A stretch of DNA of 64,000 bases. Source: an uncultured Draconibacterium sp. Lineage in GTDB: Bacteria; Bacteroidota; Bacteroidia; Bacteroidales; Prolixibacteraceae. Position 1 is the stretch's first letter, and each line of letters opens with the position of its first letter. A program made the translations under genes and the position numbers. Below, piece after piece: positions 24,952 to 60,020 of the stretch. The notes under the pieces were generated by a model. It was not told the DNA's origin. It made no database searches and saw only the letters and a list, made by a program, of their open reading frames with translations. The stretch covers positions 1 to 64,000 of the forward strand of contig NZ_CAJXTC010000008.1 of the NCBI RefSeq assembly GCF_913060805.1, in the 5' to 3' direction.

Positions 24952-25027
24952 TTCAGATTGGATAAAGATTTTCAGTGAATTTGTCTCATCAATAATTACT
25001 TTGATTATTACTGATCCGTTTCCATTA

Positions 25028-35659: not shown

Positions 35660-37147
35660 TTATAAATTATTTTGAGTTTGCTTTTTAATAAAAATGGCTG
35701 GTATCCATCCTTTGTTCTTTGCAAAGACATAAGCTTCGCCAAGTAACGGGTTTTTAAATACCCGGCTCTGAATGCTAAAATATACCAATGCACTAAATGG
35801 AATTGCAATGAGGAGGCAGATAATTTCATTTTCAGAAATTGAACGTACCCCATAAGCAATAGGAATAAAAAGAAAACAGGTTACAATTGCTTTTACTAAC
35901 AGTCTCCACTCTATTTTGAATCTTATAAGTTTATACGCAAAATACCCAGCGATCGCGGTAACCACAATTTCGCTTGATAGAGTAGCAATGGCTGCACCTT
36001 TGTCTTTAAGGCTGCCAATAAGTAACAAGTTTAGCCCAATGCTCAGTCCCATCCCTACCAGTGTTGCCCAAAGGTATTTTCGTTCGTAACCGGCCGGAAT
36101 TAGCAATTGAAAGCCAAAAATATGAGCAATCCCTATTATTAACGCTAAAGGTGCACTTATTTTCATGGTTAATACTGCATTGGCAAATTCATATCCTGAA
36201 ATGGAAAGTATAAACTCCCTGGCAAATAGAAAGAGTCCGAAACTGATGGGTACACCAATTAAGCACGTAAAAGCAAAGGATTTATTAATCAAATTATTTA
36301 CCTGAGTCTTGTCGTTGCTTTCAAGGCTTTGTGTTATACGGGGAATCAATACTGTACCCAGTGCAATTAAAACAGGAATGGTAATTTTATTAATTTTTAA
36401 CGCCGCAGTATAAAGTCCTACCGAAGTATCGTCAGCCAGAAACCCAAGCAACAAGGTATCAACCACTGAATATATACTAATGGAAACCGAAGTTCCAAGC
36501 AGAGTTAGTAATGCCGGAAGGTGCCGTTTGATTTTCAGTTCATTGAAACGCAGGGATATGATATTTCGGATTCCCCACAAGTTCCATAAATGATTGGCTA
36601 AAATTGAAAAAATAACCACGCCAAAATAAGTCAGCAGGTCTTCTTTTGTTTTAACTAAAATGAATAGAGCTACTAAGGAGAGTGCCTTTATACTTATGGA
36701 GCGCATGGATAAAAAGCGAAATTGCTCCATGCCATTATAATACCAATCGAGGTTGGAGAAGGCGCTTATAACTAATAAACCACCAAGGAGGTATAGCTGA
36801 ATATCCTCCTGAAATCGGGGAACCACAAAAAGAGTTCCGAGATATATGAAAAACAAAAGTAGAGAACTAAATCCGTTCAAAAGAACCAGTTCGGAAACAG
36901 TTCTACTGATTTGAGTTTTATCGTTACGAATTTTAGCAATTTCACGTACCCCGTAAATGGGAATTCCAATGGCAGCCAACAAAACAAAATACTGGGCAAA
37001 AACCAAAATGAACTGAATTTTACCAAAAGCCTCAGGACCCAACACTCGCGATGCATAGGAAAAACTAATGAATGGAAACAATAAGTTACTTAGTAGGAGC
37101 AAACTATTGTGAAATAAATTCCTTTTTATAGATACAGTTTTTTGCAA
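35660..37147 (-). CDS. Polysaccharide flippase, Wzx/MATE-like (copy 1)
   Basis: This 495-aa protein with about 14 hydrophobic helices belongs to the polysaccharide biosynthesis/transport family (MOP superfamily). The opening SLLLLSNLLFPFISFSYASR and VLGPEAFGKIQFILVFAQYF is characteristic, as are YGVREIAKIRNDKTQISRTV and the mid-protein TLLLGFLADDTSVGLYTAAL. It would flip the undecaprenyl-linked repeat unit to the periplasmic face. It is immediately upstream of the tandem Wzi genes. A second, differently built flippase is encoded at 53288-54739. Confidence 0.92.
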   Translation of the reverse strand: MQKTVSIKRNLFHNSLLLLSNLLFPFISFSYASRVLGPEAFGKIQFILVFAQYFVLLAAIGIPIYGVREIAKIRNDKTQISRTVSELVLLNGFSSLLLFFIYLGTLFVVPRFQEDIQLYLLGGLLVISAFSNLDWYYNGMEQFRFLSMRSISIKALSLVALFILVKTKEDLLTYFGVVIFSILANHLWNLWGIRNIISLRFNELKIKRHLPALLTLLGTSVSISIYSVVDTLLLGFLADDTSVGLYTAALKINKITIPVLIALGTVLIPRITQSLESNDKTQVNNLINKSFAFTCLIGVPISFGLFLFAREFILSISGYEFANAVLTMKISAPLALIIGIAHIFGFQLLIPAGYERKYLWATLVGMGLSIGLNLLLIGSLKDKGAAIATLSSEIVVTAIAGYFAYKLIRFKIEWRLLVKAIVTCFLFIPIAYGVRSISENEIICLLIAIPFSALVYFSIQSRVFKNPLLGEAYVFAKNKGWIPAIFIKKQTQNNL

Positions 37148-42883: not shown

Positions 42884-43921
42884 TTAATTTGTTTTCTGAA
42901 TAAATTCTTTTACCCAATAAACATATTTCAATAAATAATTCCCCAGAGGAATTTTAGCTGTCATAAAAAGCAACTTATCTCTAAAAAATAATCCATCATT
43001 ATACAAATACTTTTTTGCCATTGCTATATCTTCTTTTCTATCCAGAACAATAGCTGCCGGTAATACCTTATGATAATGTTTTTTTAAAATCTTAAATTTT
43101 AGTTCATCAGAGAGATTATATTTTTTATGAATCTCCAGTTGCGTATTCAATATTCCAAATTCTCTCTTATACTTTTTGCGTTTGGATTTTGATTGGCTTG
43201 CGCTTTCTTCTATTCTTCGATAAACCACTGTTGTATCTGGTAGCACGTGAACCTTACTTTTTGAAAAAAAATCCAGTAATAGCACAAATGAACCATCAAC
43301 AGATTTTGTTATAGATTTTGGTAATAAGTCTCTTCTTAATAGCCAGGAGCAAGGAGCCATAAAGCCAGCATTAAGCAGAAAATCCTCCAGCTCTGTATAA
43401 ATAGGAAATCTTTCCGGTTCATTTTTAAATAATGAATAGGTCATTTTTTGCGTCTTCTGGTGAAGCATATTAAAATCAGTTGCAACCAAACCATACTCCG
43501 AATTATTATCCAAAAAATCAACTTGCTTTTGCAATTTATATGGATCTATCCAATAGTCGTCACCTTCGCAAATAGCCATATATTTACCGCGTGAAGCATT
43601 TATACATCTTCTTCCATTTGCTTTACTTCCCACATTGTAATCCGCTGTTAAAACTCGAATTATATCAGGATATTTTTTTGCATAATCAAAAACGATCTCC
43701 CGAGTTCCATCTGTACTAAAATCTTCCCCAATAATAAATTCGATAGGAAAAGTTGTTTTTTGCATCAATACTCCCTCAATGCAGTCTTTTATATACTTGC
43801 CATGTTGATAGGTTGATGTCCTTATAGTTACCAATGGTTTAGGGACAGCATTAAGAACATTATTTGGTAGCTCGTAAGATTCATCAATTCTCTTCTGTAT
43901 TTCTTCTTGTGATAAAGCCAT
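42884..43921 (-). CDS. Family 2 glycosyltransferase
   Basis: This 345-aa GT2 enzyme begins MALSQEEIQKRIDESYELPN and has PLVTIRTSTYQHGKYIKDCI, FIIGEDFSTDGTREIVFDYA, and the metal site KYMAICEGDDYWIDPYKLQK. TRTSTY-type openings with GDDYW are common in Bacteroidota LPS glycosyltransferases. A longer frame from 43972 would overlap the tartrate-dehydratase-like gene, so the ATG at 43921 is chosen; it lies 11 bp after that gene. The donor sugar is unknown. Confidence 0.88.
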   Translation of the reverse strand: MALSQEEIQKRIDESYELPNNVLNAVPKPLVTIRTSTYQHGKYIKDCIEGVLMQKTTFPIEFIIGEDFSTDGTREIVFDYAKKYPDIIRVLTADYNVGSKANGRRCINASRGKYMAICEGDDYWIDPYKLQKQVDFLDNNSEYGLVATDFNMLHQKTQKMTYSLFKNEPERFPIYTELEDFLLNAGFMAPCSWLLRRDLLPKSITKSVDGSFVLLLDFFSKSKVHVLPDTTVVYRRIEESASQSKSKRKKYKREFGILNTQLEIHKKYNLSDELKFKILKKHYHKVLPAAIVLDRKEDIAMAKKYLYNDGLFFRDKLLFMTAKIPLGNYLLKYVYWVKEFIQKTN

Positions 43922-43932
43922 AAAAAAGTTTA

Positions 43933-44790
43933 TTACAGGACTACACTTGCCTTTCTTGGTTCTATACTGCAACAGGGGCGCATTGAAACAATACGGACAC
44001 CACTTGCGCGTTGTGGACCAACTTTTAGAAAAGTACTTAATGCCGTAATATCTCCTCCTAATCCAAGAGAACCAATATTACTTTTATTAACTCTGCTTGT
44101 AATATCTTTTTCAATGTCACTCTGAATAGAATGTTTTCCAAACACCATGGCTTCAAACATAAGTGTACTTGCTTCGAAGTGCGAACGTCCAATTCCTACC
44201 GCTAAGGTAATTGGCGAACAACCTAATTTGCCTGCTGCTTCCACTGTCCAATCAATAATTTCGTCGGTTACTACCGAAACACTATGTTTATGGAATACAC
44301 GAAATGTTTTTCCTCTTATTTCGGGACCACCTCCATGCATAAGAACGTGTAAACGAAGAACATCTTCTTTAGTTGGTTTTATGATAAGTGGAGAAGGGAG
44401 CATAGCTCCTGGATCGACATTCAGACCTCCAGATTGATCTATACGTTCAAAATCGTTGCCCATTATTGCCATCGGGCGGCCAGGCAAAGCATTGAGTCCT
44501 TGGTAAATTCCCATATGAATATCGGCTATTAGTTGCCCGCTAACTTCACTGTTAGGGCCAACTTCTAAAAACAGATGTGGAATACCAGAATCATCGCAAA
44601 GCGGACTGCGATTTATCTCAGCAGCAAGTGCATTCTTTAAGGTATTTTCAAGTACCCATTTTGCAACTGGTTGCGATTCTTTTTCAATAGCCTGTCGATA
44701 GATCTCTTTCTTATCATCACTGAATGTGGAACCTGCACTGATTAAAGTTTCTTTTACTTTATTTATTATTTCTGTACTCTTATAGCTCAT
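43933..44790 (-). CDS. Class I fumarase / L-tartrate dehydratase alpha-subunit-like Fe-S hydro-lyase
   Basis: This 285-aa subunit corresponds to the N-terminal domain of class I (4Fe-4S) fumarases and to TtdA. It reversibly hydrates an unsaturated dicarboxylate. Three cysteine regions suited to cluster binding are visible: PLCDDSGIPHLFLEVG, AGKLGCSPITLAVGIGRS and SMRPCCSIEP. LHVLMHGGGPEIRGKTFRV and GSLGLGGDITALS are also family features. The ATG at 44790 (MSYKSTEIINKVKETL) is chosen; it overlaps the beta-subunit stop by 11 bp. A housekeeping fumarase would not be expected inside a glycan locus, so a dedicated substrate such as tartrate or a methylated analogue is plausible. Confidence 0.85.
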   Translation of the reverse strand: MSYKSTEIINKVKETLISAGSTFSDDKKEIYRQAIEKESQPVAKWVLENTLKNALAAEINRSPLCDDSGIPHLFLEVGPNSEVSGQLIADIHMGIYQGLNALPGRPMAIMGNDFERIDQSGGLNVDPGAMLPSPLIIKPTKEDVLRLHVLMHGGGPEIRGKTFRVFHKHSVSVVTDEIIDWTVEAAGKLGCSPITLAVGIGRSHFEASTLMFEAMVFGKHSIQSDIEKDITSRVNKSNIGSLGLGGDITALSTFLKVGPQRASGVRIVSMRPCCSIEPRKASVVL

Positions 44791-45292
44791 CGTAAATACT
44801 TTTACCATTAACCGCTGCAATAATTGCAGGAAAATCTTTAATCTCCAACAAATGTAATGCCTCCATTCCTAATTCTGGAAATGCCACTACTTTCTTACTA
44901 ATGGTTTTATCTTTAAGAAGTGCCGTTACGGGAGGAATAACAGCAAATACGGAATTGTGTTTTTTTAATTCTGCTATGGTTTCAGGTTTTAACGCACCTT
45001 TTCCTAAATGCAGTTTTACTCCAGCTTTTGAAAGAGTAGGTATACTACTTTCAATGTCGAACTTGTTACTTGATGTTGGGCCAACACCAGCAGGGCTTAC
45101 CGCTGTGTGAAAAATAACAGCACCTTTGAGGTTAATTTCTAAAGCTTGAATCTGATTGTTTTCGATTAAAGTAACAATTTTGGGTAAAACCGCATCACGT
45201 CCGGTATAAATGAAGCCAGAAATGGAAATCATATCACCAACGGTTAATTTTTCAATTATTGAATTTGTTATTGGTGTTTGAATTTTAATCAT
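44780..45292 (-). CDS. Class I fumarase / L-tartrate dehydratase beta-subunit-like protein
   Basis: This 170-residue partner of the preceding Fe-S subunit is homologous to the C-terminal domain of class I fumarase (TtdB). LTVGDMISISGFIYTGRDAV is the start motif. VGPTSSNKFDIESSIPTLSK and LHLGKGALKPETIAELKKHN form the swivelling domain that closes over the substrate. FPELGMEALHLLEIKDFPAI is the conserved tail. The overlap with the alpha gene suggests assembly of a heteromeric enzyme. The substrate is not determined by sequence. Confidence 0.87.
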   Translation of the reverse strand: MIKIQTPITNSIIEKLTVGDMISISGFIYTGRDAVLPKIVTLIENNQIQALEINLKGAVIFHTAVSPAGVGPTSSNKFDIESSIPTLSKAGVKLHLGKGALKPETIAELKKHNSVFAVIPPVTALLKDKTISKKVVAFPELGMEALHLLEIKDFPAIIAAVNGKSIYDEL

Positions 45293-45303
45293 TTGCTTGC
45301 ATT

Positions 45304-46545
45304 TTAATTGATTGAATATATGTCTTTATACATAATTGGGTTGCCCTTCTCATCATAAACCTCAATTATATCGAGAACTTGATTTATATTGTTAACACAC
45401 TTCTCGGTTGAGGAAGCTTTTACGATAAATGCACCCACTCTATTATTGCTGGAGAGGTCTCTACCTATCTGTGTTCCTTTAACTTTATATATGTTTGAGT
45501 ATTCAATAAGATTTTGTTCTTTTGCTTTTTCGAAACCAATTATTTCTCCCAAAACTTTAGGTTGTACGTATATATATGTGTCAGAAATATATTCGGTTGG
45601 TTGCACATAGTTCGTTTCCATTTGACGGTGGAAGAAAGAATTAATTCCGGCTTCTATTATGTCATATCCCGTTAATAGTTCTACAATCTTATAGTTTTCG
45701 CCTCCTCCAATTCTCGCACCAAATTCAATGACACTTATATCATTGCCATTAACAATTGCTTGAATCATTAATGTAGTATGAGCTAAACCAAAAGAATCCG
45801 AAATCTGTTTGGCGATTATCATAAATTTTTCGATTATATCATCTGTTAAGTTTGCGGGCCAAAATGATCCTTGTATTTGCTGTATTGGATTCTTCTCATT
45901 AAGAATCATTTTTCTTCGTTCGCGAGACATTAAATAAATAACTTCTCCACTTTGTATTAAACAATCAAAACCTATTTCCCTACCAATTTTATATTCTTCG
46001 ATAATAGCACGACCATCTCTACTAATCTCTAATGCACTTCGCAGGTATTTTTCCAATTCTTGGTCATTATTTGCTCTTCTTACTCCTTTTGAACTATTAG
46101 AATCAACAGGCTTAACTATTAAAGGATAAGACAAATCAAGATTTTCGATGTCAACTTTGTCGACAACATTGTATTTCGATGTTGGTATATTGTTCTTTAC
46201 CATTATATCTTTCATCGCTTTTTTGTCGGTAACGGTTTTTGACACTTCATATGTGTATGGATGTGGCAATCCTAGTTTTTCAGCTACGTAACACGCTGTA
46301 ACATTTGCTTGATCTACACAAACGCTAATAACAAGTTTTACGTTATATTCTATTGCAATAGAAAGAACCTTCTCTTTATCTAATGTACTTTCTTGCAGGT
46401 GTATATCTGCATCGTTTTTTGCTGAGGGATTAGGTAGGTAATCTACCAAAATAACAAAGTAGCCCCTTTGTTTTAGCTTTGTTATTAGTAACTTATGAGG
46501 AAAAGTTCCTCCAAGAACAATCGCGTTATCTTTTTCGTTAACCAT
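45304..46545 (-). CDS. ATP-grasp carboxylate-amine/thiol ligase
   Basis: This 413-aa ATP-grasp protein has three parts. The N-terminal Rossmann-like domain opens AIVLGGTFPHKLLITKLKQR. The ATP-grasp core carries YPLIVKPVDSNSSKGVRRAN (glycine-rich/lysine loop), AIIEEYKIGREIGFDCLI and the metal-binding SVIEFGARIGGGENYKIVEL. A C-terminal domain completes it. Such enzymes join a carboxylate (via acyl phosphate) to an amine or thiol. In this setting it may couple the product of the neighbouring acid-forming enzymes to an amino sugar or amino acid. It lies 4 bp after the decarboxylase-like gene and 11 bp before the dehydratase pair. Confidence 0.85.
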   Translation of the reverse strand: MVNEKDNAIVLGGTFPHKLLITKLKQRGYFVILVDYLPNPSAKNDADIHLQESTLDKEKVLSIAIEYNVKLVISVCVDQANVTACYVAEKLGLPHPYTYEVSKTVTDKKAMKDIMVKNNIPTSKYNVVDKVDIENLDLSYPLIVKPVDSNSSKGVRRANNDQELEKYLRSALEISRDGRAIIEEYKIGREIGFDCLIQSGEVIYLMSRERRKMILNEKNPIQQIQGSFWPANLTDDIIEKFMIIAKQISDSFGLAHTTLMIQAIVNGNDISVIEFGARIGGGENYKIVELLTGYDIIEAGINSFFHRQMETNYVQPTEYISDTYIYVQPKVLGEIIGFEKAKEQNLIEYSNIYKVKGTQIGRDLSSNNRVGAFIVKASSTEKCVNNINQVLDIIEVYDEKGNPIMYKDIYSIN

Positions 46546-46549
46546 AAGT

Positions 46550-47686
46550 TTACTTTAAAATGTTATTCATAAACTCATTTTTTGCTTTAAGGTGACTAAA
46601 TTTTAATGGTGGCATATCTTTTCTTATTCCTTTCTGTATATGAAAATCAATGAAATTTGGTCCATCAATGTTTAAAAATGAGGTAATCGTTGTAATCAAT
46701 TCCTGCTTTTTGGCGATATATGAATCTAATGTATTTTTATATCCGCAATTCTTGGCAATTTCTGTTAGGTTTATCATCTGACCTGCAGATTTTTGCCCAC
46801 CAACAGATTCATGAACACCGTTGTTTAATACAATGTGTAACAAATTTTTTGGGCTTACTTTGCCCATGGTGGTCATTGCTCCTAGATGCATAATTGTTGA
46901 CGAATCTCCATCAATACAAACAACTAACCTATCTTTATTTGCTATAGCTAAACCTAAGGCAATTGAAGAAGTGTGTCCCATAGCTCCTACATTTAAGAAA
47001 TCGTGTTTATGCGATTGGCCCAGAATATTTCTTACTTCAAATAACTCTCTGGTCGAGCGCCCCGTAGAAGCCACAAAGAGCGTGTTTTTAGGAACATTTT
47101 CAACAACAACTTTAATGGCATCCTCTCTTGATAATTCATATCTATCATCTTTATTAAAACCAGATTTCTCCGCTTTATGGAATACCCCCTTTCGTGCAAT
47201 TAATGCAACTGGATGACTGGTTTTTCTAGCTGTATCAACAGCCCACTTTAAATCTTCGATAGCCTTGTCATCATCATTTTCAACAACTTTGCATTGCACT
47301 CCCATAGCCTCTAATGAGGTAATTGTCAATTCTCCTTGTTTTGTATGCTGTGGATGATCTTTTATACCAGGTTCACCTCTCCATCCTATCAGTAGGATCA
47401 TCGGAATAGAATAAACATTTTTTTCGGTTAAAGAGAGTAGGGGATTAACGCAATTTCCTATTCCCGAGTTTTGCATGTATACAAATGGTATGGTATTAGT
47501 CGAAACATGGTATCCAGCAGCTAAACCGATCGAGTTTCCTTCATTTGCTGCTATTACATGTTTGTCCTTATCCCAACTCTCTTCTATATTTAAACAAAAG
47601 TCATTTAAAAGTGTATCTGGGACACCGGTTATAAATTCAATTCCTTGAACTCTAAGTTCTGATATAAATTTTCGGATATCTATCAT
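46550..47686 (-). CDS. Phosphonopyruvate decarboxylase-like TPP enzyme
   Basis: This 378-aa thiamine-diphosphate enzyme resembles AepY/Ppd and the sulfopyruvate decarboxylases. GIEFITGVPDTLLNDFC opens the PYR domain. HVIAANEGNSIGLAAGYH contains the catalytic glutamate. PFVYMQNSGIGNCVNPLLSL and GWRGEPGIKDHPQH are strong family signatures. The PP domain has VVCIDGDSSTIMHLGAMTTM and HIVLNNGVHESVGGQ (GDG...NN motif). In phosphonate pathways it converts phosphonopyruvate to phosphonoacetaldehyde. No PEP mutase is encoded in this window, so another 3-acidic 2-oxoacid may be the substrate. Confidence 0.87.
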   Translation of the reverse strand: MIDIRKFISELRVQGIEFITGVPDTLLNDFCLNIEESWDKDKHVIAANEGNSIGLAAGYHVSTNTIPFVYMQNSGIGNCVNPLLSLTEKNVYSIPMILLIGWRGEPGIKDHPQHTKQGELTITSLEAMGVQCKVVENDDDKAIEDLKWAVDTARKTSHPVALIARKGVFHKAEKSGFNKDDRYELSREDAIKVVVENVPKNTLFVASTGRSTRELFEVRNILGQSHKHDFLNVGAMGHTSSIALGLAIANKDRLVVCIDGDSSTIMHLGAMTTMGKVSPKNLLHIVLNNGVHESVGGQKSAGQMINLTEIAKNCGYKNTLDSYIAKKQELITTITSFLNIDGPNFIDFHIQKGIRKDMPPLKFSHLKAKNEFMNNILK

Positions 47687-47705
47687 GTGTTTTTCGTGTT
47701 AAAGT

Positions 47706-49049
47706 TTAAAGCGTAAATATTGAATTGTCATTTATACTTTGATTCCAAATATTATTGAGCTGACTCTTTATGATATCTTGATCTACTAGACCATATTCAG
47801 AAAGTGATATAAATTTATCAGATATTTCTTTATCGCTTAAGGGGTTTTCTGGTTCTCCTTTGGCAAACTCAATAAATTCTGATAACGTTTGGCCACTATT
47901 TAATGTAACCTCAACAAATGCAACACTTTTTTGTGGAAATAATTGAGTGTATTCTTCTTTTGCAATTACCGTAATTTTTGATGTCAATGTTTTTATATCG
48001 GTATTTTCAATGTTGCTTTCCGAGAATTGATTGATGTCAGCTTTCCCAATAACAAATGCTAACGCAAAACTAAAAGGTATGCTCATTTTTGCAGAGGAAA
48101 CATTTGGCAACTTAGTATGGTCATGTTTGTAAACGGCCCAATAATATGTTTCTATCTTTACACTTAGGATATCTTCAGTATTTATATTTTTTCGAAGCTT
48201 AATGGCTGCATCTATACTTGGATGAGTGTAACGACATGAAGCATAAGGCTTATAGTAAGCTCTTTCTACACCAAATTTATCTTCCACTTTTTCAAATAAA
48301 ACCTCAGTATTGTATTCTTTAGACATTAAAGCGAACCATCCCCTTTCTCCTCCAAGAACATCTTCAGGGCCTTTAAATCCAGATAATGAACTGTAAGCGG
48401 CGATCAGACCATTGTTTGATGCTTTCGCTACATTAAATGGTTTTAACTCTGAATCGTCTTCTAATACTTTTAAAGTACCGTATGAAGATAATGCTGCCGT
48501 TGAGAAAGCATGTTTTAATTGTGTACGATCAAGGTCAAGAGCAATTGCAATTGATATTGCTGCCCCAATAGTTCCGCATGTGCCGGTGGCATGATAGCCA
48601 ATAGATTTATGAGATGGTTGAATCGCATCTGCTAACCTGACTGCCACTTCATATCCAATAATACCAGCGATTATAAACTTTGAAATACATACTGAATGTT
48701 TTTCGACAATTGGCAGTAATGCTGAAAAGACAGGGGCTCCTGGATGAATAATCCCAGATATTACTCCGTCATCTAATTCTGCTATGTGACTATTTAATCC
48801 ATTAACATATGATGCTGTATTTACATCAACTTTTTGCGAAGAACCTAACAGTGTGCAGTCATTACCATTGCTATTCGCTAAGTCTAGATATCGATTAGCT
48901 TTTGTCTTATTCATTTTTGCTCCAGCATATGTCGCACCTAAATAGTCTATAAAGCATCTTTTAAAACAATGTATGGTGTTGCTAGTGAAGTTAGTTTGTT
49001 TTAAAGAAATTATTTCATCAATGAATAAATTTGTAATATTTTTCTCCAT
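47706..49049 (-). CDS. MmgE/PrpD family dehydratase, epimerase or decarboxylase
   Basis: This 447-residue member of the MmgE/PrpD family includes 2-methylcitrate dehydratase, cis-aconitate decarboxylase and iminodisuccinate epimerase among its relatives. Signatures include GLNSHIAELDDGVISGIIHP and GAPVFSALLPIV, GYHATGTCGTIGAAISIAIA, KPYASCRYTHPSIDAAIKLR (the conserved K-P-Y-x-x-C-R-x-T-H-P block), and FAKGEPENPLSDKEISDKF. All major blocks are present, so it appears active. It lies 1 bp from the reductase gene and 19 bp from the decarboxylase gene. The likely substrate is a di- or tricarboxylic acid; which one is unknown. Confidence 0.87.
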   Translation of the reverse strand: MEKNITNLFIDEIISLKQTNFTSNTIHCFKRCFIDYLGATYAGAKMNKTKANRYLDLANSNGNDCTLLGSSQKVDVNTASYVNGLNSHIAELDDGVISGIIHPGAPVFSALLPIVEKHSVCISKFIIAGIIGYEVAVRLADAIQPSHKSIGYHATGTCGTIGAAISIAIALDLDRTQLKHAFSTAALSSYGTLKVLEDDSELKPFNVAKASNNGLIAAYSSLSGFKGPEDVLGGERGWFALMSKEYNTEVLFEKVEDKFGVERAYYKPYASCRYTHPSIDAAIKLRKNINTEDILSVKIETYYWAVYKHDHTKLPNVSSAKMSIPFSFALAFVIGKADINQFSESNIENTDIKTLTSKITVIAKEEYTQLFPQKSVAFVEVTLNSGQTLSEFIEFAKGEPENPLSDKEISDKFISLSEYGLVDQDIIKSQLNNIWNQSINDNSIFTL

Positions 49050-49050
49050 T

Positions 49051-50001
49051 TTAAAGTTTGGTAAAATATTTATAATAATCAGGACTGTCTAAAATTACTT
49101 TTGACCATGCTTCATCAAATGCATTTTTGATTTCTTCTGGCAGTTCTGGTTGAGTTGCTGCTTGAATGTTTTTTTGCAGTTGGGGCAAATTTGAAGCTCC
49201 AATTATAATTCCATCACCATATTCTGAATTTAATTCGGAATGGTTTACTAACCAACGATATGCTGCTTCAGCCAATGCGATATCAAAAATGTCACATTGT
49301 TTCTTTAAAAGGTTAACAGCATTGAAATAATTTTCTTTCCAATATCTATTTCGATAGCTTTTAAGACGAGCAAAGCGTCCAGGTTGAGGTTTTTCATTAA
49401 AGTTTAAATGTTTTCCTGTCAACATACCTCCTGCAAGTGGATTAAAAGCATAAAACCTCATTCCTAATTTGCGCAAAGCAGGAAATAGTTCTGGTTCAAC
49501 ATTTCGGCACAAACCATTGTACATGCCTTGGTAAATTGAAGGTTTAGGACAACCAATTTTCTCACATAAATGCCATATGTCTACAACCATCCAAGATGGG
49601 AAATTGCTTAATCCCAATTCCTTAAATTTTCCGCTTTCATATAATACAGCACATTTTTCGAGTGCTTTTTCAACTGGTGTAACATTGTCGGGAAAATGAA
49701 AATATAAGATGTCAACTGAGTTGCGATTCATTCTACGCAATGATTCATTGAATTGCAAGTCTATAGCATCTCCGTCAAGTTTACCCGTAATACGTGGGTG
49801 TACTTTCGTTGCAATGGAGTACTTTTCTTTAGGTATATTATTTAGATACGAACCTAAAATTTTCTCAGTTTCGCCGTTGTTATATACAAATGCAGAATCA
49901 AGCTCTTTGTTTCCTGTTGATAAAAAAATATCAACCATTTTCTGACTTGTGGTTAAATCAACTTGTGGGCCAAAAGTCATTGTGCCGAATATCAATTTCA
50001 T
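49051..50001 (-). CDS. Aldo/keto reductase, AKR7-like
   Basis: This 316-aa NAD(P)H-dependent reductase opens MKLIFGTMTFGPQVDLTTSQ and has the catalytic tetrad visible in ELDSAFVYNNGETEKILG (Asp, Tyr), SIATKVHPR (Lys) and VDILYFHFPDNVTP (His). FYAFNPLAGGMLTGKHL and the C-terminal GIIIGASNLPQLQKNI (cofactor site) are typical. The opening resembles AKR7 enzymes, which reduce succinic semialdehyde and dialdehydes. A semialdehyde made by the neighbouring decarboxylase is therefore an attractive substrate. That link is an inference from adjacency. Confidence 0.88.
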   Translation of the reverse strand: MKLIFGTMTFGPQVDLTTSQKMVDIFLSTGNKELDSAFVYNNGETEKILGSYLNNIPKEKYSIATKVHPRITGKLDGDAIDLQFNESLRRMNRNSVDILYFHFPDNVTPVEKALEKCAVLYESGKFKELGLSNFPSWMVVDIWHLCEKIGCPKPSIYQGMYNGLCRNVEPELFPALRKLGMRFYAFNPLAGGMLTGKHLNFNEKPQPGRFARLKSYRNRYWKENYFNAVNLLKKQCDIFDIALAEAAYRWLVNHSELNSEYGDGIIIGASNLPQLQKNIQAATQPELPEEIKNAFDEAWSKVILDSPDYYKYFTKL

Positions 50002-50102
50002 GCTTTGTAATTGTAATGTTTCATTTGTAATCGTTCAAGCATGTGTTTAATCATACCCTTAAATGGTAATTTTGCACATGTTTGTTTTTTCTTGTTTTAG
50101 TG

Positions 50103-51245
50103 TTATCCTGCAATTATTTTTAAGTATGAGAGGTCATTCTCTATAACACCATATGCATTTGCTCTTGATATTGTTTGGTTCGCCCAACTGCGGTGTGGGT
50201 TTATTTCATTCATTTTATTTGATTGAGCACTTTTTATTACTCCACCTTCAGAGTTTATAATTTGCATCGCATCTTCATAAGCCTCTTGAGTTACGCATTG
50301 CATTGCATTCACAAATCGCGCGTGGGAAGGATGAATAATCGTTTTACCAACAAATCCGTTGGCTTTATCAATAATAACTTCTCGGAGTAAGCCATCTATG
50401 GCATCATTTAATATTGGCGTTCTATTGGTTAACGATCTGTGGATATCATCGTTAAGAAATTTTCTAATATTATCTGCTTTATATGCTAAGAAGTATTCCC
50501 AAACAGGTGCCGAAATTAAATAATCGTCTTCAGCACGATTAAAAAAATTAAGGATGTCGGCCAAACAATCTCTTACGGTAAGGATGTCGTAGATAGAATA
50601 GTTAATTCCCCTTCTTACTCCGAATAGGGATGAAAAGTCGGTACCTCCAACTCTTATATTCAGTATTTGCTCTTTAAACGGGTATAAAATATCTTTTAAC
50701 GCTTTCAATTCTTCTCTTCGGGATTCTTGATAAGCTATAGTTTTTCCTTCAAGAATTGGCATGCTATATAGCTTGGCATCATGTTTTCTGGATAGGAATT
50801 CAACTTCTTTTAGGTATTCAATTGCATTTTGACTATAAAATTTTGGGAATACAAAGCCTGTTAAGATTCTTATCTGTTTTCGTGATATTTGTTGCGAAAA
50901 ATGCTGAAATTGACCAAGATCTCTAATTCTGATAAATATCAAGGGAATATCACCAATTGAGAGCAGCTTATTCTCTACTGCCTCTCCAATTTTTTCAAGA
51001 TGATGAATAATATTTTTTTCTGCAGTAATTAAATCCGATTCCTGAATAGCATCTTCCAGACACATTACCATGGAAGTAATGTCAACAAGTTCTTTGTTTA
51101 ATATTTTAGACAGAATATCTTTTGTTCCTGGCATGTACAATGTAGCCCCCAAACAATATTGTAGGAAATTTCGTTCTGTATTTTTGTCAAATTCAACTGG
51201 CTCCTTAACAAAATTGTAATTTTTGTTGTAACGATGGTGTCTCAT
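50103..51245 (-). CDS. CitE-like HpcH/HpaI aldolase/citrate lyase family protein
   Basis: This 380-aa TIM-barrel protein of the citrate lyase beta / malyl-CoA lyase superfamily opens YCLGATLYMPGTKDILSKIL and has SMVMCLEDAIQESDLITAEK, PLIFIRIRDLGQF (substrate Arg), YSMPILEGKTIAY (metal Glu) and RVGGTDFSSLFGVRRG (metal Asp). VGKTIIHPSHARFVNAM is the late conserved block. The LGATLYMPGT and CLEDAI arrangement looks close to the subgroup found in tellurite-resistance-associated metabolite operons. The usual reaction class is C-C bond cleavage or formation on a 2-oxo/3-hydroxy acid or CoA thioester. A 101-bp gap separates it from the reductase gene. Confidence 0.85.
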   Translation of the reverse strand: MRHHRYNKNYNFVKEPVEFDKNTERNFLQYCLGATLYMPGTKDILSKILNKELVDITSMVMCLEDAIQESDLITAEKNIIHHLEKIGEAVENKLLSIGDIPLIFIRIRDLGQFQHFSQQISRKQIRILTGFVFPKFYSQNAIEYLKEVEFLSRKHDAKLYSMPILEGKTIAYQESRREELKALKDILYPFKEQILNIRVGGTDFSSLFGVRRGINYSIYDILTVRDCLADILNFFNRAEDDYLISAPVWEYFLAYKADNIRKFLNDDIHRSLTNRTPILNDAIDGLLREVIIDKANGFVGKTIIHPSHARFVNAMQCVTQEAYEDAMQIINSEGGVIKSAQSNKMNEINPHRSWANQTISRANAYGVIENDLSYLKIIAG

Positions 51246-51262
51246 AGTTTTAAGTTTGGGAT

Positions 51263-52177
51263 CTATTTAATTGAACCTTTTTTCGAACCCTTTGCTTCAG
51301 GGTAATACTGATCGATGACTCTTTTCACTAAACTAACCTGTTTGGCACGTTGCTTTGCCTCGGTTGCTGTAGTGTTCCAACCATGTGTTTTTGCTACAGA
51401 ACCACCGGTTTTAAGGAAGACTGGTGCAGTATATTTGATCATATCTGGGACTTCGTAGTGGCGTATAAAACCACCTGAAGATGTCGGATTCTCGGTATGT
51501 AGGTCAATTGGAACGTTAATTGCTTGACGTATGGAAGCCAACATTGGTATTTGTAAATCTCTAACTGGATTGATAGAATCTGCACCTAAGATTTCCAGTA
51601 ATTTTGCTGAACATGGATTCCCGTGTCCGGTATGAGCAGAGATTTTAAATTTTACGTTGGCAGGTAGTTCTCTCTGCTCCCTCATTTGGTTTAAAATCCA
51701 AAGTAAACCTTCATCGTAAAGTAGAAAGGAGTTACAACCCAGCACATTTGCCCTTTTCACATCTTCAATGGCACGAATAATTTGTTCTTGTCCTCGTAGG
51801 CGCAGTCCCATGCGTTGTCCTTCTGCTGTATGTACTGATGCACTGGTATCGTAGGTAGCACGGGGGCCGATGGATAGAACCAAATCTACTTGACCATGTT
51901 TTGCCAAATTTACCATAGCAGATATTTCGTTGTCTGTTAACAACATAATTCCCTTGGTTTGTGTTACCCGATGGATTGTCAGGTTTAAGGTAATTATCTC
52001 GTCAAGCAGTGCTTCCATTGTTGCAGGACCTTGAATTCCTGGTACTTCGAAACGATACTGAGCACTATCAGAAAAACATTTTTCTGAGGGCTGCATATTT
52101 GTTAAGTCACCATCCGGTAATCCTGATTTTGATAAAAACTCTTTAGTGCTTTTCATTGGTATATAAAGATTTGGCAT
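51263..52177 (-). CDS. TIM-barrel protein resembling peptidase U32 family
   Basis: This 304-residue protein was not confidently recognised beyond a U32-like/TIM-barrel appearance. Visible blocks are VLSIGPRATYDTSASVHTAE, QRMGLRLRGQEQIIRAIEDV, NSFLLYDEGLLWILNQMREQ, FKISAHTGHGNPCSAKLLEI, and PIDLHTENPTSSGGFIRHYE with FLKTGGSV. U32-like proteins act in nucleotide or cofactor modification as well as proteolysis, so a peptidase role should not be assumed. The frame overlaps the DegT gene end by 35 bp; an alternative ATG at 52156 reduces this to 14 bp. Its place between a CitE-like lyase and an aminotransferase suggests a metabolic role. Confidence 0.65.
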   Translation of the reverse strand: MPNLYIPMKSTKEFLSKSGLPDGDLTNMQPSEKCFSDSAQYRFEVPGIQGPATMEALLDEIITLNLTIHRVTQTKGIMLLTDNEISAMVNLAKHGQVDLVLSIGPRATYDTSASVHTAEGQRMGLRLRGQEQIIRAIEDVKRANVLGCNSFLLYDEGLLWILNQMREQRELPANVKFKISAHTGHGNPCSAKLLEILGADSINPVRDLQIPMLASIRQAINVPIDLHTENPTSSGGFIRHYEVPDMIKYTAPVFLKTGGSVAKTHGWNTTATEAKQRAKQVSLVKRVIDQYYPEAKGSKKGSIK

Positions 52178-53291
52178 TTAAGTCTATAAGTTGGCAAATT
52201 TTGCAAACTGTTTCTAAAGATAGGTTGGGATATAAAGGCAAGCAGATCACCTGCTCAGCTGTCTGTTGTGCAATTCGTAATTTTTCAGGATTTGCGGATT
52301 CTAATCCCTTATAAATTGGAAATTCACTAATTAGAGGATAAAAATAACGCCTGCCATAGATATTATTTTGCTTTAGTCGTTCGTATAAGTCGTTACGGCT
52401 TATTCCGTATTCTGCTTCGTTAATAAAAATTGGGAAGTATGCATAGTTAGAAGTAGTATCGGAAGGTTGCGATAGAAAAGAAACACCTTTAATTCCTTTT
52501 AATTTTAGTTGATATTGCTCAACAATTGTTTTCCTCTTTTCAACATTTTCTTTGTGGTGTTTTAACTGTAAAATTCCCATGGCTGCCTGTAATTCGTTCA
52601 TTTTCGAATTAATGCCTGGCGCCATCACTTTTATTTCTCCTGCAAAACCAAAATTCTTTAGGAAATCTATTCGTTTTTTGGTCGCCTCATCATGGCAGAC
52701 AATGGCGCCTCCTTCCATGGTATTAAAGACTTTGGTGGCGTGGAAACTTAAAATGGAAAGATCGCCAAAGTTGCAGATACCCTGACCTTTGTGGTTTACT
52801 CCAAAACAGTGGGCTGCATCGTAAATAACTTTCAGTCCATAAATGTCTGCTATATCCTGTATTCGCTCAATTTTGCAGGGATTACCGTAAACATGAACAG
52901 GAAGGATGGCTGTTGTTTTGGGGGTTATGGCTGCTTCTATTTTCTCCGGATCTAGATTGCAAAATTCCTTCTCAATATCAACGAATACAGGTTTTATATT
53001 GTTCCACCACAAACTATGTGTTGTTGCAACAAAACTATATGGGGTTGTAATAACCTCACCGGTAACCTGTAGCACTTGCAAAGCTGTAACTAAAGCTAAG
53101 GTTCCATTCGCAAACAGAGAGATGTATGGAACCCCTAAAAATTCAGCGAGTTCTTTCTCCAATTGTTTATGAAAAGGTCCGTTATTAGTTAGGATTTTAT
53201 TATCCCATATTTGTTGTAGGTAGGGAATAAACTCATCCAATTCAGGTAGTGATGGTTGAGTTACATAGATTGGGTTATCTAATTCTTTCAT
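52143..53291 (-). CDS. DegT/DnrJ/EryC1/StrS family aminotransferase
   Basis: This 382-aa PLP-dependent sugar aminotransferase converts a keto-sugar nucleotide to an amino sugar. Motifs are GPFHKQLEKELAEFLGVPYI, VTALQVLQVTGEVITTPYSF, ILPVHVYGNPCKIERI, VIYDAAHCFGVNHKGQG and LSFHATKVFNTMEGGAIVC, where the Lys after HAT is the PLP lysine. MNELQAAMGILQLKHH is the C-terminal signature. Products in this family are 4-amino-4,6-dideoxy or 3-amino sugars. It is the only amino-sugar-forming enzyme in the locus, and no dehydratase (RmlB/WbpM-like) is encoded nearby. It overlaps the flippase gene by 4 bp. Confidence 0.92.
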   Translation of the reverse strand: MKELDNPIYVTQPSLPELDEFIPYLQQIWDNKILTNNGPFHKQLEKELAEFLGVPYISLFANGTLALVTALQVLQVTGEVITTPYSFVATTHSLWWNNIKPVFVDIEKEFCNLDPEKIEAAITPKTTAILPVHVYGNPCKIERIQDIADIYGLKVIYDAAHCFGVNHKGQGICNFGDLSILSFHATKVFNTMEGGAIVCHDEATKKRIDFLKNFGFAGEIKVMAPGINSKMNELQAAMGILQLKHHKENVEKRKTIVEQYQLKLKGIKGVSFLSQPSDTTSNYAYFPIFINEAEYGISRNDLYERLKQNNIYGRRYFYPLISEFPIYKGLESANPEKLRIAQQTAEQVICLPLYPNLSLETVCKICQLIDLNAKSLYTNEKH

Positions 53292-54739
53292 TTTTTTCTG
53301 TAGGTTGATATTTTCTCAAATACAACAAGTTTTATATATATATAATCTTTAAAGTTTATTATTTCGCATACTAAGAAGACATAAAGAATACCAGTTAATA
53401 TTTGAACAAATAATTGCCAGATAGCGGGGATGTCCAAATATTTACCTACTAAAAAAGTTATGCTTGCCATGGATAAAGCAAGCAAAAATGAAGGGGTAAT
53501 ATCTTTAATTTGTCGAATAAACGAATAGCCAATCATTTTTCCCGACCAGTAGCTGTTGAGATAAAAGGCAATGATTGTATTGACCATCATTCCCAATATC
53601 ATCATTTTTATTCCCCAATAAATCCCAACAAGGATGGTGGGTACTGCCAATGCTTTTTTTATGATCTCAAGTCGCAAAAACAGATCACTTCTTCTCTGTA
53701 CCTGTAACATATTGAGGTTTAAGGCATGTAGGGGGTAAAACATCCCTACAAAACACAACATTTGTAAATAAACAACAGCCGGTAACCATTTCTCTCCAAT
53801 TAAGGCAATGATCATTGGTTTCGCCACTGCTGCCATTCCAAGCATTAGGCAGAAAGTAACCAGCATAGTTATTCGAATAATTTTTTGATAGGCATGTTTT
53901 AATTTTTCTTTATCATTCTGAATACTAGCTAAAACCGGGTAACTTACTCGACTAATAATGTTATTTAAATTTTTTGATGGAAAGGCTTTGAATTGGTCTG
54001 CCCTAGTGTAAAAACCAAGTTCTTTAGCTGCAAAGTACTTACCAATAACAAGAAAATAGATATTTCGATATATGGTATCAATGAGGCCACTTATTAATAG
54101 CTTACTACCAAAAGAAAAAAGTTCGTTAAAGGACTTCTTGCTAAATACTCCTTTTGGTTTCCATTTAGCCCAAATCCATAAAAACATTGAGTTTAATCCA
54201 AATCGCAAAAGAGTTAACGCAACAAGGCTCCAAACGCCGTATCCCAACATTGCCATTATGATAGCGATTGAACCCGAGCCTACTGACGCCACGATGGAAA
54301 CTCGTGTTTGTAGTTTAAAATTAATTTCTTTTGTAAGTATTGTGCGCTGAATAATGCCTATTGCATTGAATACAATTCCAATACCTAAAACCTTTAAAAG
54401 CAATATTAGCTGCGGTTCTTTAAAAAAGAAACTTATTTGAGGAGCAAAAAAGAATAATATTGCGTAAAAGAGAATGCCTATTATCAGATTATAATAAAAG
54501 ACAGTTGAATAGTCTTCTTGGGTACAATTTTTCTTTTGTATTAATGCATTGCTAAAACCACTGTCGACTATAGATTGAGAGACAGCAATAAAAATGGTGA
54601 GCATACCAATTAATCCAAACTCTCTGGGAGATAGAATACGTGCCAGAATTATGCCCACCACAAATTGTACTCCTTGATTGGTAAAACTATCTATAAAACT
54701 CCATAAGAGCCCATTTATAGTTCTTTGTTTAAGTGTCAA
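53288..54739 (-). CDS. Lipopolysaccharide/polysaccharide flippase (Wzx/TuaB-like, copy 2)
   Basis: This 483-aa MOP-superfamily transporter has about 12-14 helices. It opens RTINGLLWSFIDSFTNQGVQ and has ILSPREFGLIGMLTIFIAVS and DSGFSNALIQKKNCTQEDYS, a pattern typical of the WzxC/TuaB-like subgroup. ELGFYTRADQFKAFPSKNLN is the conserved loop. It differs in sequence and subgroup from the flippase at 35660-37147, so the two probably move different lipid-linked units. It lies 50 bp downstream of the second Wzz-like gene and overlaps the DegT gene by 4 bp. Confidence 0.91.
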   Translation of the reverse strand: MTLKQRTINGLLWSFIDSFTNQGVQFVVGIILARILSPREFGLIGMLTIFIAVSQSIVDSGFSNALIQKKNCTQEDYSTVFYYNLIIGILFYAILFFFAPQISFFFKEPQLILLLKVLGIGIVFNAIGIIQRTILTKEINFKLQTRVSIVASVGSGSIAIIMAMLGYGVWSLVALTLLRFGLNSMFLWIWAKWKPKGVFSKKSFNELFSFGSKLLISGLIDTIYRNIYFLVIGKYFAAKELGFYTRADQFKAFPSKNLNNIISRVSYPVLASIQNDKEKLKHAYQKIIRITMLVTFCLMLGMAAVAKPMIIALIGEKWLPAVVYLQMLCFVGMFYPLHALNLNMLQVQRRSDLFLRLEIIKKALAVPTILVGIYWGIKMMILGMMVNTIIAFYLNSYWSGKMIGYSFIRQIKDITPSFLLALSMASITFLVGKYLDIPAIWQLFVQILTGILYVFLVCEIINFKDYIYIKLVVFEKISTYRKK

Positions 54740-54789: not shown

Positions 54790-55908
54790 TTAAGCAGAAG
54801 GACTATTCCATTGTTCTTTTATACTATTCAAAAACTCTTTCCCAAATATCCATCCAATGGAAACAACCATTCCTACAAAAGTATAAATAATAAGTGTTGT
54901 AAGCCCACTTTTATTATCCTCCAATGGTACAGTAACGGGTTTAAGAACCGAGAATACAGGTGTGTCTTCTTTTACCTGTATCCGCGCCTGCTCCAGTTGT
55001 TGTGCGAGTCCTGAATATACATCAAAGGCCAGCTGGTAATTGCTTTGCAGTTGTTCTTCCTGAGTACGGGCCAGAGCAGAGGTAACATTTTTGTTTTTAT
55101 CGCGAAATTCGGCAAGTGTAGCCTGGGCTGATTCAAATTCTTTTTTATTTTCAATGTAACGTTCTTCAATAAATCTGAGCTGTGCTGATGCTTTTTCGAT
55201 TTTATAATTTGTAATATACCTTTGTAACATAGATAGTGCTTTTTGGGTTACCTGAGCGGCCAGTTCTGCATTTACAGTACTTGCCGAAAGCGTTAAAAAG
55301 CCATCCTTGTCGTTTACTTCGAGATTTACTTTTTTGCTGAGCATCTTTCGAACCTTTTCCTGCTCTTTTGTTAGAGTTACATAGCCATTGGTTGTTGTTT
55401 CATTTATCGCATTTTCTTCTTCACCTTTAATAACTTTAATAATTACCCCAGGAAGTCCAATTGTGTATTTTTTCAGACCTTCCAAAAAACCGGTTTTTCT
55501 TACTTCAGTGTAATATGTATATATACTTAAGGAGTCCCTTTGTCCGGGGAAACTAAAAGGGGTATTCATCAGTTCAAGCTGAAAGGGGACACTTTTTATT
55601 ATTTGGGGGTATACCATAGGAGAGAGTTGTGTATTTCCTCCGGTCATATCATTAAGGTTAAACCCGGCCATGGCTGCCAATGAGGATAAACCACCTATTT
55701 TTGAGGAACCATCAGAGATTTGAGGAACTACAGTCGTGGAGGCGGTGTATTCTTTTGGAGTAAACAGGGCTACTGCTATGCCCATAACCATAAAAGCGAA
55801 TACGGTTATTAAGATGAACTTTCGTCCTTCCCAAAGGGTTTTTGCGAGGGCTATGAGGTCTATTTCATCCTCTGTAGCTTTGTTTGTTTTATTTATTTCG
55901 TCTGTCAT
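54790..55908 (-). CDS. Wzz/GumC-type polysaccharide co-polymerase (copy 2)
   Basis: This 372-aa PCP-family protein is paralogous to the one at 23827-24951. It has an N-terminal helix (FILITVFAFMVMGIAVALF), a Gly-rich SSKIGGLSSLAAMAGFNLND stretch, a periplasmic helical region (SAQLRFIEERYIENKKEFES), and a second helix (LTTLIIYTFVGMVVSIGWIF) after PVFSVLKPVTVPLEDNKSG. No kinase domain is attached. It is co-transcribed with the second Wza-like gene upstream, after a 254-bp gap, and with the second flippase. Confidence 0.9.
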   Translation of the reverse strand: MTDEINKTNKATEDEIDLIALAKTLWEGRKFILITVFAFMVMGIAVALFTPKEYTASTTVVPQISDGSSKIGGLSSLAAMAGFNLNDMTGGNTQLSPMVYPQIIKSVPFQLELMNTPFSFPGQRDSLSIYTYYTEVRKTGFLEGLKKYTIGLPGVIIKVIKGEEENAINETTTNGYVTLTKEQEKVRKMLSKKVNLEVNDKDGFLTLSASTVNAELAAQVTQKALSMLQRYITNYKIEKASAQLRFIEERYIENKKEFESAQATLAEFRDKNKNVTSALARTQEEQLQSNYQLAFDVYSGLAQQLEQARIQVKEDTPVFSVLKPVTVPLEDNKSGLTTLIIYTFVGMVVSIGWIFGKEFLNSIKEQWNSPSA

Positions 55909-56162
55909 TATTTATGTTGCTTACATTATTATTCACTTATCACATCAAATTTCAGAAATTAGTTTGTCTGCCCGAAAAGCCAGACTCTTCCATATGATTG
56001 TAAATCTCATACCGGTTTTTATTGTGATGTTTGTTGGTTTAATTTCAACCTGTAGCAATTTTGGTTATCTGGAATTTTATAATACCCAATTTGTTTACCT
56101 ATGAGATACTGATATTGCTGATTATCTCAAAGACTATTCAAAATAAATGCGGCAATTATAAT

Positions 56163-59486: not shown

Positions 59487-60020
59487 TTAAGAGCAAACGT
59501 TCATAGTTTCAGGCAGTGCACTTAGATAAGCGGCCGGTATTTCCACCAAAAAGGAGGTGTTGATCTGCTCAATACGCAACGCAAATTTATTCTTGCCCCT
59601 GGATTCGATCAGTTCACCTTTTAGTCCCACCATTGGTCCTTCGATCACTTCAACCAGTTTTCCCGGTTCAAAATTTTCCATGGTAACATCCACTTCAAAA
59701 TCAAATTGCTGAAGTAGGGTGCGCATGGCATCAATTTCCTTCTGGCTGACGATGGCTGCTTTGCGCTCGAAAGTGATGTAGTATACCACATTTGTCAGTT
59801 GCAAAACCTGGTCGTATTCTTTTCGGGTGATATTTACAAAACAATAACCGGGAATGAGTGGTGTTTCTACCCATTTTTTGCGGTCTTTCCACTGGCGAAG
59901 CTGCTTCTGCATGGGGAGGAAGCATTCTATATCACTGGCCAGAAGTTCCTGTAGTACTTTTTTTTCGGCTCGTGATCGGGTATATATTACATGCCATTGT
60001 TTCTGGGTCTGTATGGTCAT
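59487..60020 (-). CDS. UpxY-family NusG-like transcription antiterminator
   Basis: This 177-aa NusG paralog has an N-terminal NGN domain (QWHVIYTRSRAEKKVLQELL; IECFLPMQKQLRQWKDRKKW; TPLIPGYCFVNITRKEY) and a C-terminal KOW domain (FEPGKLVEVIEGPMVGLKGE; LIESRGKNKFALRI). Such proteins head polysaccharide loci in Bacteroidota and prevent premature termination in the long operon that follows. It is transcribed first, with the rest of the locus beginning 404 bp downstream. It acts on RNA polymerase in the cytoplasm. Operon specificity is inferred from position. Confidence 0.92.
   Translation of the reverse strand: MTIQTQKQWHVIYTRSRAEKKVLQELLASDIECFLPMQKQLRQWKDRKKWVETPLIPGYCFVNITRKEYDQVLQLTNVVYYITFERKAAIVSQKEIDAMRTLLQQFDFEVDVTMENFEPGKLVEVIEGPMVGLKGELIESRGKNKFALRIEQINTSFLVEIPAAYLSALPETMNVCS

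Follow-up and report, generated by a model that had tools for sequence, protein, structure and literature searches.

What are a two-subunit class I hydro-lyase, an MmgE/PrpD-family dehydratase and a CitE-like lyase doing in a locus for a surface polysaccharide? Fumarases, MmgE/PrpD proteins and CitE-like enzymes normally serve catabolism or central metabolism, and in a 64,000-nucleotide stretch of DNA from an uncultured Draconibacterium sp. (contig NZ_CAJXTC010000008.1, positions 1 to 64,000; hereafter the window) they are encoded together in a nine-gene block at 43933-53291, framed by a flippase gene on one side and a glycosyltransferase gene on the other. Our answer is that the block is a conserved module and not a chance assembly; its identity as a module and its role in glycan formation are the firm part of our explanation. 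As to what it makes, we think it fairly probable that this is a transferable module that builds a branched carboxylic acid by citrate-type chemistry, and that the acid is amide-linked to an amino sugar of the surface polysaccharide.

The nine open reading frames (ORFs) run head to tail along the minus strand and are nearly contiguous, with intergenic gaps of 1 to 101 bases and, where present, overlaps of 35 to 41 bases (ORF start positions are mechanical calls). We checked their families by Pfam and NCBIfam searches. In order of transcription they are:

52143 to 53291, minus strand: DegT-family protein resembling sugar 4-aminotransferases (DesI-like; PF01041, E = 1.4e-101)
51263 to 52177, minus strand: U32-like TIM-barrel protein, the marker of the module (no Pfam or NCBIfam match at E ≤ 0.001)
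50103 to 51245, minus strand: CitE-like C-C bond lyase (PF15617, 376.7 bits against a gathering score of 28.4)
49051 to 50001, minus strand: aldo/keto reductase (AKR; PF00248)
47706 to 49049, minus strand: MmgE/PrpD-family dehydratase (PrpD; PF03972 and PF19305)
46550 to 47686, minus strand: thiamine pyrophosphate (TPP)-dependent 2-oxo acid decarboxylase, a putative paralogue of phosphonopyruvate decarboxylase (Ppd; TIGR03297, 421.8 bits against a cut-off of 312.5)
45304 to 46545, minus strand: ATP-grasp enzyme resembling carboxylate-amine ligases (PF07478, PF13535 and others)
44780 to 45292, minus strand: class I hydro-lyase beta subunit (FumB-like; PF05683; GRDAVLP replaces ARDxAH; PDB relative 7xky_B)
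43933 to 44820, minus strand: class I hydro-lyase alpha subunit (FumA-like; PF05681; PLCDD replaces P[IL]CQD; PDB relative 7xky_A)

An earlier note on this DNA had described a compact same-strand run of nine enzyme genes, which is what we found, and its family names stood for the DegT, CitE-like, AKR, MmgE/PrpD, TPP, ATP-grasp and hydro-lyase proteins; the name U32 did not, as the protein matched no peptidase U32 family, or any other, in Pfam or NCBIfam. We keep "U32-like" as a label that reflects a weak resemblance and the annotation of distant plasmid relatives, nothing more.

Scanning genome contigs with the U32-like protein gave 11 loci, eight in Firmicutes (mostly Clostridia, many from metagenome assemblies) and three in Methanobacteria, and whole-genome searches added G101 from the window's order, G466 and G477 from its phylum, and G887 from the order of G200. 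The bacterial set used below is thus 13 loci, namely the window (genome G000) and 12 relatives. U32-like positives numbered 2 of 198 genomes in the window's order and 3 of 395 in its phylum (window genome counted in each), with 2 strong matches and 1 weak one among 295 genomes in the order of G200 (G200 counted). The earlier note had named scattering of the genes in related genomes as grounds for dropping the idea of a pathway; we saw linkage instead, the U32-like, CitE-like and PrpD genes lying together within about 5 kb in all 13 bacterial loci. A FumB-like gene is present in 11 of the loci and a FumA-like gene in 10 within the locus stretch, an eleventh genome (G207) having its FumA-like gene on the same contig just outside that stretch; L066 is shortened by a contig end, and L010 has a split CitE-like gene. 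The CitE-like, PrpD and U32-like genes are therefore an invariant core to which the hydro-lyase pair is usually joined, and the spread of the module is sporadic with its linkage intact.

Is the polysaccharide setting as constant as the core? Glycan-type neighbours, whose co-occurrence with the block the earlier note had proposed to check, were confirmed by Pfam in 11 of the 13 bacterial loci, nine of which have as neighbour a flippase, a sugar transferase, a glycosyltransferase, an RmlC-type epimerase or a UDP-galactopyranose mutase, and this setting recurs across distant bacterial groups. The sole neighbour tested in L064 was an ABC transporter, with no glycan-type gene, and that in L066, where the contig ends, gave no Pfam match. 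Many further glycan-type neighbours were recognised by eye only. In the window the framing by a flippase and a glycosyltransferase was borne out by Pfam (PF13440 and PF00535), and both ORFs overlap the block, the flippase ORF with that of the DegT protein and the family 2 glycosyltransferase ORF with that of the FumA-like subunit. Because the gaps are short and the end ORFs overlap these two genes, the block, flippase and glycosyltransferase likely form one transcription unit. Pfam also identified Wzz, Wza-like and NusG-family genes upstream, so that the context of the block reads:

59487 to 60020, minus strand: NusG-family protein (PF02357), presumably an UpxY-like antiterminator
56163 to 58487, minus strand: Wza-like polysaccharide export protein (PF02563, PF10531)
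54790 to 55908, minus strand: Wzz chain-length protein (PF02706)
53288 to 54739, minus strand: MOP flippase (Wzx-like; PF13440, E = 1.6e-93)
42884 to 43972, minus strand: family 2 glycosyltransferase (PF00535)

The window holds two sets of Wzz-like and Wza-like genes, at 23827-27460 (by eye) and 54790-58487 (by Pfam), and two flippase genes, at 35660-37147 and 53288-54739; it possibly comprises two adjacent polysaccharide loci, or one locus with duplicated export genes.

These observations bear on the simplest alternative, that the block is an operon serving catabolism of, or redox reactions on, a di- or tricarboxylic acid and came into a glycan locus by chance. The usual roles of the fumarase, PrpD and CitE families speak for it; the glycan-type neighbours that recur in 11 of 13 loci from distant groups and the overlap of the block with the Wzx and glycosyltransferase genes speak against it, and we regard it as very improbable.

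What kind of acid might the core produce? An indication came from the genes that accompany it. A TPP enzyme is encoded in 8 of the 13 loci and an AKR in seven, each time with a TPP enzyme; four other loci (L010, L014, L016 and L019) have a D-isomer-specific 2-hydroxyacid dehydrogenase and one (L065) has an Ldh_2 dehydrogenase of the malate/lactate type. At the BLAST threshold used, no locus had two of the three. All three families act on 2-oxo acids, and because these mutually exclusive endings share that property, we infer a 2-oxo acid as the product of the core, finished differently from locus to locus. The logic of the earlier note, a keto acid taken on by a decarboxylase and then a reductase, is strengthened by this result; 5 of 13 loci have a dehydrogenase in place of the TPP enzyme. 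In the window, the AKR is proposed to reduce an aldehyde released by the TPP enzyme: its NCBIfam matches (YdjG-like and others) all fell below cut-off, and residues D35, Y40, K66 and H102 are conserved in the seven loci. In the AKR, TPP, PrpD and DegT proteins alike, the expected catalytic positions are conserved.

Since the score of the TPP enzyme exceeds the NCBIfam equivalog cut-off for phosphonopyruvate decarboxylase, we considered a phosphonate variant, in which the U32-like protein stands in for phosphoenolpyruvate (PEP) mutase, the TPP enzyme acts as a genuine Ppd, and aminoethyl- or hydroxyethylphosphonate is placed on the glycan. The window genome does encode a PEP mutase elsewhere. 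Yet in a tree of TPP enzymes the eight block rows formed a clade of their own (support 100/99), separate from three Ppds whose genes cluster with that of PEP mutase, one of these three being from the window genome itself, and PEP mutase scored over cut-off in only two of the eight TPP-bearing hosts (G000 and G199) and in 3 of the 13 hosts overall; some hosts are incomplete assemblies, although G101 and G477, both without PEP mutase, are listed as 99% and 98% complete. The five loci with a 2-hydroxyacid dehydrogenase instead of a TPP enzyme, and the methanogen U32-like genes, which neighbour citryl-CoA-lyase-like and hydro-lyase genes, also argue against this variant. With PEP mutase this rare, endings that alternate and a TPP clade that stands apart, we disfavour the phosphonate route as the least probable of the explanations weighed here. 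On the same comparisons the TPP enzyme is not tied to phosphonates and is probably a divergent Ppd paralogue with a new substrate; its Ppd-like family would favour an acid with a second negative group nearby. A PEP mutase/phosphonopyruvate decarboxylase cluster in the window genome (L070, G000:C11:63000-74000) represents a separate phosphonate pathway.

The U32-like protein, present in every locus, was the hardest to place. It had no significant sequence relative in the PDB (best E-value 0.51). Its AlphaFold 2 model had a mean predicted local distance difference test score (pLDDT) of 86.2, and Foldseek searches with two AlphaFold models gave class II aldolases, class II sugar-phosphate aldolases included, as top matches, with methylisocitrate lyases within the top 50 and the U32 protein MK0906 as one among many TIM barrels; template modelling (TM) scores of about 0.40-0.52 are those of a generic TIM barrel and do not discriminate among these. 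The protein is possibly a C-C lyase or aldolase. The aldolase matches also suit a different explanation, that the U32-like protein is a sugar aldolase and the product of the block is not an acyl group but a higher sugar acid of an unusual kind, and cytidylyltransferase-family genes near L011 and L065 would fit that as well. The low TM-scores count against it, as do the PrpD, class I hydro-lyase and CitE families, which are established to act on di- and tricarboxylic acids, and cytidylyltransferases were confirmed in these two loci only, the others not having been searched for them. We consider a sugar acid improbable.

The companions of the U32-like protein in the block point to carboxylic acids. 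The CitE-like protein is proposed to be a Claisen or retro-Claisen enzyme. PrpD belongs to the MmgE/PrpD family by its two domains and by residues D93, H102, H153, K203, K267 and H276, which are at least 95% conserved across 25 bacterial and archaeal sequences and which we take to be equivalent to the catalytic residues of IRG1; its relatives in the PDB are IDS-epimerase and IRG1, and NCBIfam PrpD models scored it far below cut-off. The hydro-lyase has both of the usual subunits, PF05681 and PF05683, with altered motifs. PLCDD[TS]G is found in all 11 bacterial and all 17 archaeal cassette alpha subunits, as against PICQDTG in the housekeeping alpha subunits of five Firmicutes genomes and PLCQDTG in PDB 7xky, and GRDA[VA]LP occurs in those block and cassette beta subunits that the pattern caught (not every one was), as against ARDAAHKR in housekeeping beta subunits and ARDxAH in 7xky and 6upo. 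Among the genomes searched, block and archaeal cassette alpha subunits were 44-61% identical to the window copy and housekeeping copies 23-30%, and in the alpha-subunit tree the 28 block and cassette rows split from five housekeeping rows with support of 100/100 (4 of the 9 housekeeping loci, including that of the window genome, had no row that survived filtering). Because the cysteine beside the altered residue of the alpha subunit is kept while the motif is changed, the block hydro-lyase is likely an Fe-S enzyme with a changed substrate; the block "fumarase" would thus probably be a divergent paralogue with a new substrate. A second hydro-lyase pair (G201:C2:209393-210730, in Hungatella effluvii, the genome of L013) has an alpha subunit 46% identical to the window copy and possibly belongs to a further pathway.

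How would such an acid reach the glycan? An ATP-grasp gene is linked in 11 of the 13 loci, eight of the proteins (the window's included) scoring above 200 bits, and its solved relatives include 4dim (PurD-like) and the L-amino acid ligase 3vot. The DegT protein scored 313 bits against TIGR04427 (DesI), below the cut-off of 650; its sole PDB sequence match at E ≤ 1e-60 was 2po3, Lys187 is kept in all five aligned loci, and it probably makes an amino sugar. That the ATP-grasp enzyme joins the acid to an amine, as the earlier note had it, is thus plausible from linkage; that the amine is the DegT-made amino sugar fits the five loci, the window among them, that have the gene. Since DegT at 40% identity or more is confined to these five, the amine partner may vary. 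This leads to another explanation, in which the acid is joined to an amino acid, in the manner of an L-amino-acid ligase, or to a hydroxyl by a membrane acyltransferase. Besides 3vot and the lack of a universal DegT, it is favoured by Acyl_transf_3 membrane acyltransferase genes (Pfam) inserted in the Firmicutes blocks of L010 (14290-15285) and L011 (6687-7706) and by a homologue of the L010 gene inside the block of L019 (about 14271-15311). Against it, the window block has no acyltransferase between its genes, and 11 of 13 loci have a linked ATP-grasp gene; we consider this explanation unlikely.

For amide linkage of a branched acid, our preferred explanation, the following scheme can be proposed, with central metabolites as the starting materials. 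The CitE-like enzyme would join an acyl-CoA (coenzyme A) to a 2-oxo acid to give a citrate-like hydroxy acid (step 1), which PrpD would dehydrate (step 2); the FumAB-type Fe-S hydro-lyase would add water back, or act on a related alkene (step 3); and the U32-like barrel would make or break a C-C bond to leave a 2-oxo acid with a nearby anionic group (step 4). In the window, the TPP enzyme would then decarboxylate this acid to an aldehyde and the AKR reduce it to an alcohol, direct reduction giving a D- or L-2-hydroxy acid in other loci (step 5). Finally, the ATP-grasp enzyme would couple the acid to an amine, here probably the DegT-made 4-amino sugar, before export by Wzx (step 6). The order of steps 1-4 is a guess that could easily be wrong.

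Several points weigh against this explanation. We infer the substrates, the order of the steps and the product from sequence, and neither sequence nor Foldseek comparison settles the reaction of the U32-like protein. The ATP-grasp proteins of L012, L015 and L064 are 23-25% identical and may be another ligase, and no ATP-grasp gene was found in the 20.9 kb of L011; the other locus with none, L066, is cut by its contig end. DegT at 40% identity or more is found in only 5 of 13 loci, and inspection by eye, confined to the window and not extended to the rest of the genome, showed no RmlA or RmlB genes for dTDP-sugars. FumAB are not present in L064 and L065, and block-type FumA was not found in the whole genomes of their hosts, G477 and G466; the hydro-lyase step is therefore not always needed. 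The glycan setting of L014 is by Pfam a single glycosyltransferase, and those of L011 and L065 are a single cytidylyltransferase-family gene each. Lastly, the CitE-like family is not peculiar to the module, as it was found in 2515 of 72,556 plasmid records, mainly of Klebsiella, Escherichia, Enterobacter and Salmonella. Judging from the one neighbourhood examined (Brevibacillus), these plasmid genes probably belong to Ter-type modules of a PF15617 lyase and a phosphoribosyltransferase; their lyase is up to 46.6% identical to that of the block, but that neighbourhood has no gene annotated as U32-like, PrpD or fumarase. Wider relatives of the U32-like protein itself (33-40% identity) were found on four plasmid records, with no other block genes at E ≤ 1e-8 in the 18-19 kb read from each, two of the four having no gene annotation around the relative. 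One of them (33%; L007 8974-9912, an Enterobacter plasmid) lies in a different set of genes that also looks biosynthetic, the annotations there being for an aminotransferase, an oxidoreductase, an M14 metallopeptidase and redox enzymes that contain iron.

Do the core enzymes occur outside glycan loci? All 17 Methanobacteria cassette loci read have PrpD, U32-like and FumA-like genes side by side. At the level of the class 126 of 149 genomes have a U32-like gene, at that of the phylum 128 of 151, and no glycan genes were recognised by eye around the archaeal L017, L018 and L020. Because Methanobacteria carry PrpD-U32-FumA as a widespread cassette, the core enzymes are not glycan-specific. The archaeal FumB-like gene is located elsewhere in the genome (three genomes checked). 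A citrate-synthase-family gene follows or adjoins the cassette in 14 of the 17 loci, two of the other three being cut by contig ends, and the L017 copy (269 residues) matches the citryl-CoA lyase 6HXP with an E-value of 1.2e-66. Since the archaeal citryl-CoA-lyase-like and bacterial CitE-like proteins are of unrelated sequence families suited to the same Claisen type of reaction, we read them as a replacement of one by the other; no citryl-CoA-lyase-like gene was found in the 13 bacterial loci (neither the rest of the bacterial genomes nor CitE-like genes in archaeal genomes were searched). A nitroreductase-family gene adjoins the citryl-CoA-lyase-like gene in eight methanogen loci (L046-L052 and L020; one copy Pfam-checked) and could encode an ene-reductase that reduces a double bond in the same pathway.

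The genes of the cassette seem to be retained or lost together, as block-type FumA was found in 0 of 13 searched genomes without the U32-like gene and in 7 of 7 with it. The methanol gene MtaB was present in 15 of 23 genomes without the U32-like gene (20 from the class search and 3 from the phylum search, some of which may be incomplete) and in 16 of 126 with it; because 15 of the 31 MtaB genomes are thus without the U32-like gene, this suggests that the genomes without it are Methanosphaera-like lineages. To our knowledge, no genes are known for the 1,3,4,6-hexanetetracarboxylic acid tail of methanofuran. 1,3,4,6-Tetracarboxyhexane is described as forming part of methanofuran and as being a major solute in Methanothermobacter (PMC1224877), and a 2021 paper speaks of the enzymes behind methanofuran's linker or terminal moieties as still to be identified (PMC8141765). 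Both in its kind of chemistry and in how widely it is spread among Methanobacteria, the archaeal cassette would suit the making of this tail. Loss of the whole coenzyme as the cause of cassette loss was rejected, as genomes without the U32-like gene retain MfnB (22 of 23, compared with 30 of 30 tested with the gene) and mostly FwdB (over cut-off in 20 of 23); this retention neither supports nor excludes a role of the cassette in the tail. We therefore offer only tentatively, as a possibility we would not bet on, that PrpD, U32-like and FumAB are one pathway in two domains, whose archaeal product is the methanofuran tail and whose branched polycarboxylic acid, completed by one of the three endings, is used by gut and other bacteria to decorate surface polysaccharides. 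The link between the domains likely came about by horizontal transfer, on whose direction the trees disagree: in the U32 tree (outgroup branches very long) the 13 bacterial rows form one group (94/99) nested among archaea, which are not one group, whereas the FumA tree leans weakly the other way, its archaeal rows grouping together (83/100) and its bacterial rows not.

Comparison with known systems gave partial likenesses throughout. Like the block, the 2-methylcitrate cycle (PrpC, PrpD, AcnB, PrpB) combines a PrpD-family protein with a Claisen-type enzyme, an enzyme from an Fe-S hydro-lyase family, and a TIM barrel, PrpB being one among many Foldseek matches; the block, however, has no citrate synthase, aconitase or PrpB family member by Pfam and NCBIfam, lies in glycan loci, and ends in a decarboxylase and reductase, or a dehydrogenase, with an ATP-grasp enzyme. 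The aminoethylphosphonate branch of capsule loci (PEP mutase, Ppd and a transaminase) has in Ppd the apparent paralogue of the block TPP enzyme, whose clade is separate, and the block has no PEP mutase. Class I fumarase, L-tartrate dehydratase and mesaconase share both hydro-lyase subunits and differ in having P[IL]CQD and ARDxAH where the block has PLCDD and GRDA[VA]LP. Loci for N-acylated 4-amino-4,6-dideoxy sugars of the anthrose and viosamine type likewise bring together a DegT aminotransferase, enzymes that make an acid, and Wzx, but attachment there is by a CoA-dependent acyltransferase, where for the block we propose an ATP-grasp enzyme; we know of none whose acid-making enzymes match those of the block. 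Methanofuran side-chain biosynthesis in Methanobacteria would share with the block the families of PrpD, the U32-like protein and the hydro-lyase, encoded there in a conserved cassette, with the difference that its tie to the cassette is one we draw ourselves. No description of the gene set was found among open-licence PMC papers, judged by titles.

As far as that open-licence literature goes, then, the locus is apparently an undescribed variant of the loci that decorate glycans with non-sugar groups. If our explanation is true, it would add an undescribed acid-building pathway for surface glycans, including an unclassified TIM-barrel protein, and new-substrate branches of the class I hydro-lyases and of the Ppd-like decarboxylases. 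The three interchangeable endings would make the class of product predictable from the locus, and the names fumarase, U32 peptidase, 2-methylcitrate dehydratase and phosphonopyruvate decarboxylase are better avoided in annotating these genes. The archaeal link would supply candidate genes (PrpD, U32-like, FumA/FumB and citryl-CoA-lyase-like) for a pathway common among Methanobacteria, possibly that of the side-chain acid of methanofuran.

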